From: Myxococcales bacterium
Lineage (GTDB): Bacteria; Myxococcota_A; Polyangia; Polyangiales; Houyiibacteriaceae
Assembly (NCBI GenBank): GCA_019637115.1
Contig: JAHBWH010000049.1
Span: 1 to 48,480 of the forward strand
Direction of reading: 5' to 3'
Length of the DNA stretch: 48,480 nucleotides
In this document: one piece after another, positions 228 to 7,146 of the stretch
Position numbering within the stretch: the first letter of the stretch is position 1
Layout of the letters: the number at the start of each line of letters is the position of its first letter
The notes under the pieces: model-generated
What the model was told of the DNA's origin: nothing
Database searches by the model: none
The model's input: the letters and a program-made list of their open reading frames with translations, nothing else
Translations under genes and position numbers: made by a program

Positions 228-1799
228 ATGACCTTCTCTCTCCGCGACATCCTCAACCGCGCGCGCTGGCGCGACGAGAACCTCCACGCGCTCGAGCTCG
301 TCGTGCTCCACCGCGGCGCGCCCGGCGACCGGCGCGTCGTCTCCGGCGCGCTCGTGACCGACGTCGGCCCCTCCGGCGTGACGCTCGACGGGCAGGGCCT
401 GGAGGAAGACGTCTTCCTCCCCTACCACCGCTTCCTCGCGATCCGCGGTCCCGACGGGGCGCTCTGGGACAAGGAGGGCCGCGCGCTCGAGGCGCACGAG
501 GCGGAGGACGAGGAGGCTGTCATCGAGGAGGCCGCCATCGCGGTGGCCGACGAAGCCGCGGCCACGACGCCGCGGACCACCGCGGCGAACCAGGAGGCCG
601 CGCACGCCACGGCGGCCGCGGGCTCCGAGGTCGCGACGCTGCAGGCCACGTCTAACCCAGACGCCGCGGGTCCGACGCCTAGCGCCCAGGCCACCGCGGC
701 CGCGCCGACCGGCCGAGAGATCGCCGTGCGCCACGAGGTCGTGCTCCGCCACCCGCACCGGGACGCGCCGCTCGTGATCGACGGTAGCGCCGGCGAGGGC
801 GGCGGACAGATCCTTCGCACCTCGCTCACGCTCTCGATGCTCACGGGCAAGCCCTTCGTGCTCGAGCACATCCGCGGCCGACGCTCGAGGCCCGGGCTGC
901 TCCGTCAGCACCTCACGTGCGTCAACGCGGCGGCGGCGGTCTCGCAGGCGACGGTCGAGGGCGCGAGCCTCGGTTCGTCGACGCTCTCGTTCCGACCCGG
1001 CGCCGCTCGTGGCGTCGAGCGCCGCTTCGACATCGGCAGCGCGGGTTCGGTCGCGCTGGTCCTGCAGACGATCGCCTTGCCGCTCGCGCTGGCAGACCGA
1101 CCGTCCACGATCACGTTGCGCGGAGGGACCCACGCCCGCTGGGCGCCGATCGTCCCCTTCCTCGAGCGCGCGTGGCTCCCGCTCGTGCGCCGCATGGGCG
1201 CGGACATCGCCCTCGAGCTGCGACGCCCGGGCTTCTATCCGGCCGGCGGCGGCGAGGTCGTGATGCACGTGTCTCCGGCGGCGTCGTCGCTCGCGCCGCT
1301 CCACCTGCCGTGCCCCGCGGGCGCGCTCGCCGTGGAGATCGACGCGATCGTGTCGGAGCTCCCGGAGTCCATCGCGCGTCGCGAGCTTGCGGTCGTGGCC
1401 GAGCGCCTCGGCGCGGAGCGCGTGATGCTCCGCAGCGCGACGGTGCGTGGCGTGGGTCCGGGCAACGCGCTGTGGATCGCGGCCCGGGGCGCGGGCGAGG
1501 TGACGAACGTCTTCTCGGGCCTCGGCGAGCGCGGCGTCGCGGCCGAGGACGTGGCACGGGAGGTCGCGGAGCGTTTCCTCGCGTGGCGCGCGTCGGGCGC
1601 GGCGGTCGAAGAGCACCTCACCGATCAGCTCATGGTGCCGATGGCGCTCGCGCGAGGCGGGAGCTTCACCACGGACGCCATCAGTCTCCACTCGACGACG
1701 AACGCCGACGTGATCGAGGCGTTCACGGGCGAGCGCGTCCGAGCGTTCGACCTCGGCGACGGACGCTTCCGCGTCGCGCTGGGAGATCCGGCGGTCTGA
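228..1799 (+). CDS. rtcA: DUF504-RtcA fusion, RNA 3'-terminal phosphate cyclase
   Basis: The 523-residue product has two domains. Residues about 1-85 match the archaeal DUF504/UPF0248 pattern: LRDILNRARW near the start, then HRGAPGDRR, then a PYHR motif. Residues about 90-165 are an Ala/Thr-rich linker. Residues about 180-520 are a full-length RtcA (the E. coli protein is 338 aa), with GSAGEGGGQILR, the RGRRSRPGL stretch, and the presumed AMP-accepting histidine at 488 in LHSTTNADV. RtcA uses ATP to turn RNA 3'-phosphate ends into 2',3'-cyclic phosphates. The DUF504 role is unknown; RNA binding or an RNA-end activity is an inference from this fusion. No rtcB or rtcR is visible nearby. A GGGAGG sequence lies about 10 bp before the ATG and supports this start. 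The stop codon is the first base triplet of a tandem array. Confidence 0.9.
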   Translation: MTFSLRDILNRARWRDENLHALELVVLHRGAPGDRRVVSGALVTDVGPSGVTLDGQGLEEDVFLPYHRFLAIRGPDGALWDKEGRALEAHEAEDEEAVIEEAAIAVADEAAATTPRTTAANQEAAHATAAAGSEVATLQATSNPDAAGPTPSAQATAAAPTGREIAVRHEVVLRHPHRDAPLVIDGSAGEGGGQILRTSLTLSMLTGKPFVLEHIRGRRSRPGLLRQHLTCVNAAAAVSQATVEGASLGSSTLSFRPGAARGVERRFDIGSAGSVALVLQTIALPLALADRPSTITLRGGTHARWAPIVPFLERAWLPLVRRMGADIALELRRPGFYPAGGGEVVMHVSPAASSLAPLHLPCPAGALAVEIDAIVSELPESIARRELAVVAERLGAERVMLRSATVRGVGPGNALWIAARGAGEVTNVFSGLGERGVAAEDVAREVAERFLAWRASGAAVEEHLTDQLMVPMALARGGSFTTDAISLHSTTNADVIEAFTGERVRAFDLGDGRFRVALGDPAV

Positions 1800-6638: not shown

Positions 6639-6859
6639 GGCCGAGAGATCGCCGTGCGCCACGAGGTCGTGCTCCGCCGCCCGCACGGGGACGCGCCGCT
6701 CGTGATTGACGGTAGCGCTCGGGAGGGCGGCGGGCAGATCCTCACGCTCTCGATGCTCACGGGCAAGCCCCTCGTGCTCGAGCGCATCCGTGGCCGACGC
6801 TCGAAGCCCGGGCTGCTCCGTCAGCACGTCACGTGCGTGAACGCGGCAGCGGCGGTCTC
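6639..6859 (+). pseudogene. Truncated duplicate of the rtcA region
   Basis: This stretch is a near-copy of 711-943 in the DUF504-rtcA gene. It covers the last linker residues and the first part of the RtcA domain ([47 protein letters not shown]). It carries an in-frame 12-bp deletion that removes four residues after GGGQIL. Homology ends abruptly at both sides. The surrounding open frame (6549-6929) therefore encodes no complete cyclase, and the histidine motif is absent. It is a decayed partial duplication, probably linked to the mobile DNA around it. Confidence 0.85.
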
Positions 6860-6930
6860 TTACCGTCACGGCGCGGAGCTCGCTCGCCGATCTCCTCGAA
6901 CAGCCCCGCTCTCGCGCGTGAATCACTGAG

Positions 6931-7081
6931 TACAGTTCCCCAGAAGACCGTGACCAGGTGCGGCAGATCCATCCCGTCCCGTTGCGTTGCTCCTCAGTCA
7001 CGGGCCAACAGCCCGCTCCTTCGTCGCGCCTTGCGGGACGGGCGCCTCTTTGCACTGGTCACGATCTTCTGGGGAGCTGTA
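6931..7081. mobile_element. 151-bp MITE-like element with terminal inverted repeats
   Basis: The left end TACAGTTCCCCAGAAGACCG... (about 30 bp) and the right end, read in reverse complement, TACAGCTCCCCAGAAGATCG..., match at about 27 of 30 positions with one gap. The 5-bp sequence CTGAG occurs directly outside both ends (6926-6930 and 7082-7086), as expected for a target-site duplication. The 90-bp interior encodes nothing recognisable. A small non-autonomous transposon mobilised by a transposase elsewhere fits best; the CCCCAGAAG tip recalls IS3-type ends, but this assignment is uncertain. Confidence 0.7.
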
Positions 7082-7146
7082 CTGAGCGCGATGCACGCCG
7101 AGATCCCTACACCGAAGTGACGAGCGTTCGGCGGGGAACGCGAGCG

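Follow-up and report, generated by a model that had tools for sequence, protein, structure and literature searches.

The MJ1316 domain occurs in archaea, bacteria and eukaryotes. It corresponds to family PF04457 (formerly DUF504, also UPF0248 and COG1531), which Pfam calls the "RNA cyclic group end recognition domain". Its predicted role is the recognition of RNA 2′,3′-cyclic ends (PMC6514570), and the same prediction has been made for archaeal COG1531 (PMC9425974). In the literature searched, we found no experimental demonstration of any MJ1316 function, and recognition stands as a prediction only. The chemistry of RtcA, the RNA 3′-terminal phosphate cyclase, and the pairing of rtcA with rtcB in operons have also been described (PMC8131947). 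In the classic rtcR/rtcBA arrangement, rtcR is divergent from an rtcB-rtcA pair. In another operon, a small accessory protein, archease, is encoded with the RNA-repair ligase RtcB and affects its catalysis (PMC3973293).

Here, we show that a single gene in the window (the whole stretch of DNA analysed, which is the entire 48,480 bp contig C379) encodes an MJ1316 domain fused through a linker to a complete RtcA. In relatives, the two parts are either fused in the same way or encoded by neighbouring genes, most often within an rtc operon. The arrangement recalls, by description, that of RtcB and archease, except that archease targets RtcB and MJ1316 is attached to RtcA.

An MJ1316 domain joined to RtcA

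The gene begins 227 bp from the start of the window and comprises the following features:

213-220, + strand: Shine-Dalgarno-like AAGGGAGG, 7 nt before the ATG, read from the sequence
228-1799, + strand: fusion ORF of 523 aa with an ATG start
228-479, + strand: MJ1316/DUF504 domain of the RtcA-linked subtype, residues 1-84 (PF04457, profile A2, AlphaFold)
480-758, + strand: low-complexity Ala/Glu/Thr-rich linker, residues 85-177 (alignment A1, pLDDT)
759-1796, + strand: complete RtcA RNA 3′-terminal phosphate cyclase, residues 178-523 (Pfam, NCBIfam, PDB alignment, fold)
1332-1586, + strand: RTC_insert, residues 369-453 (Pfam)
1689-1691, + strand: H488 codon, equivalent of E. coli RtcA His309 (PDB alignment)

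The earlier note on this DNA had proposed a complete RtcA with its active histidine, and both are evident. Pfam places the RTC domain (PF01137) at residues 189-504 (255 bits, E 5e-76) and scores the RTC_insert (PF05189) at 39.6 bits, while NCBIfam NF003246 identifies RtcA at equivalog level, with 399 bits against a cut-off of 352. The C-terminal part matches E. coli RtcA over its length, and the nearest fold to the full model is E. coli RtcA 3tut (TMt 0.95). H488 aligns with the adenylated (nucleotide-accepting) His309 of the E. coli enzyme, which is Asn in the 3tut chain, and is invariant in the five fusions of alignment A1. The window protein thus shares the full RTC fold, insert domain and active histidine with the known RtcA structures (E. 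coli 1qmh, 3kgd and 3tut; P. horikoshii 4o89) and is 43% identical to E. coli RtcA over the fold. Unlike them, it adds an N-terminal MJ1316 domain of 84 residues and a long linker.

The match to PF04457 spans residues 5-82. In the whole protein it scores 21.5 bits, under the gathering score of 26.3 bits; the isolated domain scores 26.3 bits, exactly at the cut-off (E 1.3e-5). Among its relatives, the domains of G001, G104 and G196 lie above the gathering score (35.2 bits for the G104 fusion, 34.7 bits for the separate G196 ORF), and those of G366 and G244 lie slightly below. Because relatives exceed the cut-off, the weak score of the window domain reflects divergence rather than chance. A chance match was also rejected because the domain recurs, six times fused and twice as an ORF of its own. 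The N-terminal assignment made in the earlier note therefore stands, with the motifs RW-D, HRGAPxD-R, P-Y-H-R and W80 conserved. Against profile A2, of which it is itself a row, the window domain scores 151.9 bits.

Membership of the wider family rests on the profile and on positions held in common: R13-W14-D16, H28, P65-x-H67-R68 and W80 are found in both MJ1316 subtypes seen in the phylum. Across 14 sequences drawn from both, P65, R68 and W80 are invariant and H67 nearly so. The RtcA-linked form is nonetheless a distinct subtype, with an insertion of about 16 residues relative to the short-form domains of the phylum, and it sits on a cyclase instead of the EEP, 2H or NTase enzymes that carry the usual PF04457 members. 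The label "archaeal-type" that had been attached to the domain is misleading on this account, and also because the family is present in several bacterial lineages of the phylum.

The linker is real and, on the model, disordered: residues 109-151 have pLDDT <50. It exceeds the linkers of the other fusions in alignment A1 by about 50 residues. Compared with G001, a genome of the same genus, the MJ1316 domain is 73% identical, RtcA 74% and the linker 50%; we take only identities from this comparison, since dS cannot be estimated reliably at such a G+C content. Both domains were modelled with confidence by AlphaFold, the MJ1316 domain at pLDDT 86.5 with a predicted fold of a helix followed by a small beta barrel. 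No solved structure of the domain was found by sequence search, and Foldseek gave its model no match at E ≤ 0.001 (best E 0.2). VIA-align returned a middling likeness to Sm/Hfq barrels (Z about 5.5-6) and to SspB (Z 6.3-6.5). The Sm/Hfq likeness of the model may reflect just a common arrangement, and we place no weight on either likeness. Taken together, these data confirm an MJ1316-linker-RtcA fusion in ORF 228-1799.

Operon context and ancestry

The earlier note had called for a survey of other genomes. To this end, profile A2 was built from the MJ1316 domains of five fusions and run on two genome sets, from the phylum (379 genomes) and from the order (184 genomes); beyond the phylum, the survey was a pattern scan of genome contigs alone. 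Six genomes of the phylum have the fusion: the window genome, G001, G104, G164, G110 and, in another family, G366. Two more, G196 and G244, have mj1316 as a separate ORF. Since the other five fusions are rows of A2, it is G366, G196 and G244 that count as independent finds. Every strong A2-type domain found in the phylum, eight in all, either belongs to an rtcA fusion or is encoded beside rtcA. Weak matches in G072 and G286 were rejected upon reading the sequences, from which the domain is absent; G030 gave a further weak match. Within the order, RtcA is present in 79 of 184 genomes and the fusion in 5 of those 79. Most RtcA proteins of the order do without the domain, so cyclase activity probably does not depend on MJ1316.

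In G104, G164, G110 and G366, the fusion is the next gene after rtcB (gaps of 3, 12, 6 and 61 nt, respectively) and rtcR is divergent, such that the fusion serves as the rtcA of a classic rtcR/rtcBA locus. G196 and G244 have the gene order rtcR, rtcB, mj1316, rtcA, with mj1316 an ORF of its own (88 or 84 codons), which in G196 runs, in a different frame, into the beginning of rtcA. These six genomes all keep rtcA beside rtcB with rtcR divergent, an arrangement absent from G001. They differ from the classic operon in the extra mj1316, fused or separate, between rtcB and rtcA. What is new here is that, as read from these sequences, one lineage has the RtcA-linked MJ1316 as a third component of its rtc operon.

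The window genus departs from the classic locus in another way: in G001 the fusion has no linkage to rtcR-rtcB, and in G000 the fusion and the rtcR-rtcB pair are on different contigs. The earlier note had remarked that rtcB and rtcR neighbours are lacking. This is correct locally but misleading, given the contig edge, the split within the genus and the position of the fusion behind rtcB in four genomes. Because the contig begins at base 1, such neighbours can be checked only downstream. The window starts within an array of GGACTC hexamers (positions 1-150); the genome as a whole has 288 + 285 24-mer hits to such arrays, some of them at contig ends. The cognate, divergent rtcB-rtcR pair of the window genome is on contig C19, an end of which has a GGACTC array too, and its rtcB is followed by about 0.9 kb with a possible lipoprotein gene. 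In G001, rtcB (91% identical) is on contig C578, adjoining a kinase-like ORF (read from the sequence), and the fusion is on C257 among unrelated neighbours. The operon has therefore come apart in G001 and, probably, throughout the genus. C19 and C379 may conceivably adjoin through their GGACTC arrays, but the many copies of the array in the genome, the sequence behind rtcB on C19 and the separate contigs in G001 speak for caution. The window genome also has a second, distant RtcB paralogue on contig C418 (L058, 9157-10485, - strand), 31% identical to the RtcB of C19.

Phylogenetic trees bear on how these arrangements are related. In the RtcA tree, the six fusions form one clade (100/100), and the separate-gene operons of G196 and G244 are sister to it (97/99). 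In the RtcB tree, the RtcBs of all six fusion genomes, the unlinked ones included, form one clade (100/100). The trees fit a single origin of the three-part operon and a single fusion, though other histories, such as a later split, are possible. In the simplest history, mj1316 would first have been a gene of its own that joined a repair operon under rtcR control, with rtcB on one side and rtcA on the other; it would then have been fused once to RtcA and later, in the window genus, been unlinked with it from rtcR-rtcB. Mobile spread of the domain was considered and rejected: no relatives of the domain were found in the phage records or viral contigs searched, and the plasmid matches listed were confined to the RtcA part, covering at most 64% of the query.

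Possible roles of the MJ1316 domain

Elsewhere in the phylum, the same domain, in its shorter form, lies at the N-terminus of different RNA-end enzymes. A domain scan identified MJ1316 with an EEP phosphatase and a 2H phosphodiesterase/2′-5′ RNA ligase in G397, G401, G486, G425 and G131, and with EEP and poly(A)-polymerase domains in G061. In L002 from G089, the scan found nothing recognised besides MJ1316. By domain content, then, the scanned MJ1316 proteins with recognised partners are joined mostly to RNA-end chemistry. RNA 3′ ends are the site of action of the 2H, poly(A)-polymerase and RtcA partners, several of which deal with 2′,3′-cyclic phosphate. G080 has two further short MJ1316 ORFs. 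The large bacterial proteins of the MJ1316-EEP-2H or MJ1316-EEP-poly(A)-polymerase type are those at L093, L094, L095, L096, L004 and L005.

We favour, with a probability of roughly 0.6, the view that the gene encodes an RtcA cyclase with a tethered MJ1316 module for recognition of RNA termini. RtcA would activate an RNA 3′- or 2′-phosphate with ATP, via His488-AMP, and close the activated end to a 2′,3′-cyclic phosphate, a form that the ligase RtcB can seal. The most likely ligand of MJ1316 is the phosphorylated or cyclic-phosphate terminus of a cleaved RNA, which the domain may either deliver to the cyclase or, once cyclised, retain for passing to RtcB. That DUF504 binds or processes RNA ends had been suggested in the earlier note. 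Recognition of RNA ends agrees with the evidence assembled here, but the idea is already known, both from publication and from the Pfam name. The rtcB-mj1316-rtcA operons and the fusion in the sister clade add a tie between MJ1316 and one enzyme with a simple, well-established assay. Because MJ1316 is tied to so readily assayed an enzyme as RtcA, its predicted recognition of phosphate or cyclic-phosphate RNA ends is directly testable. A bolder and doubtful extension is that MJ1316 defines a separate Rtc subtype (RtcB-MJ1316-RtcA), which would pick particular damaged RNAs and channel the cyclised end from RtcA to RtcB. If true, this would give a repair specificity unlike that of the classic two-enzyme system.

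Alternatively, MJ1316 may be a protein-protein adaptor: it would dock RtcA to a partner, be it RtcB, RtcR or the ribosome, without itself touching the RNA end. The coding sequence of the domain sits between rtcB and rtcA, both of which have been inherited together with it, and the long linker would allow docking. Its helix-plus-barrel model is about as similar to SspB, a peptide adaptor, as to Hfq, and a physical link would be more useful where the genes are unlinked, as in the window genus. However, the partners of MJ1316 elsewhere in the phylum (EEP, 2H, poly(A) polymerase) are quite different enzymes, which have RNA-end chemistry in common rather than one protein partner. On balance, we regard a pure adaptor as rather unlikely.

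Recognition of RNA termini by a tethered module also has to be weighed against a catalytic role, in which MJ1316 would, for example, open a 2′,3′-cyclic phosphate or shift the phosphate between the 2′ and 3′ positions before RtcA acts. R13, D16, H28, H67 and R68 are polar and invariant, or nearly so, across two divergent subtypes, and some of the partner enzymes act on cyclic phosphates. Yet the partners already provide catalytic activities, the family name and the literature predict recognition only, and Foldseek found no likeness to an enzyme fold; an added catalytic step is accordingly improbable. That the N-terminal part is non-functional, or that translation starts after it to yield a plain RtcA, is hardly credible: the weak Pfam score, internal GTG codons at residues 167, 172 and 183 and the loss of operon linkage in the genus (at least in G001) would fit, but a good ribosome-binding site precedes the ATG at 228, the domain starts 3-61 nt behind rtcB in the four linked genomes and is as conserved as RtcA, the linker being less so, and in the sister operons it is an independent gene.

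Repeats and a partial rtcA copy in the window

Immediately 3′ of the rtcA stop codon, at 1801-1904, lies a 13-bp tandem repeat (CGCTCGGAGTGAC and a variant). A partial copy of the start of rtcA, about 220 bp long and without the MJ1316 domain, is found 5.9 kb downstream of the gene, at 6639-6859 (+ strand). It is 93-94% identical to 711-943, with a 12-bp deletion, and the similarity soon ends, as in a duplication remnant. Just past this copy is a 32-bp inverted repeat (6926-6957 and 7055-7086, 91% complementary), the arms of which may mark the termini of a small mobile element.
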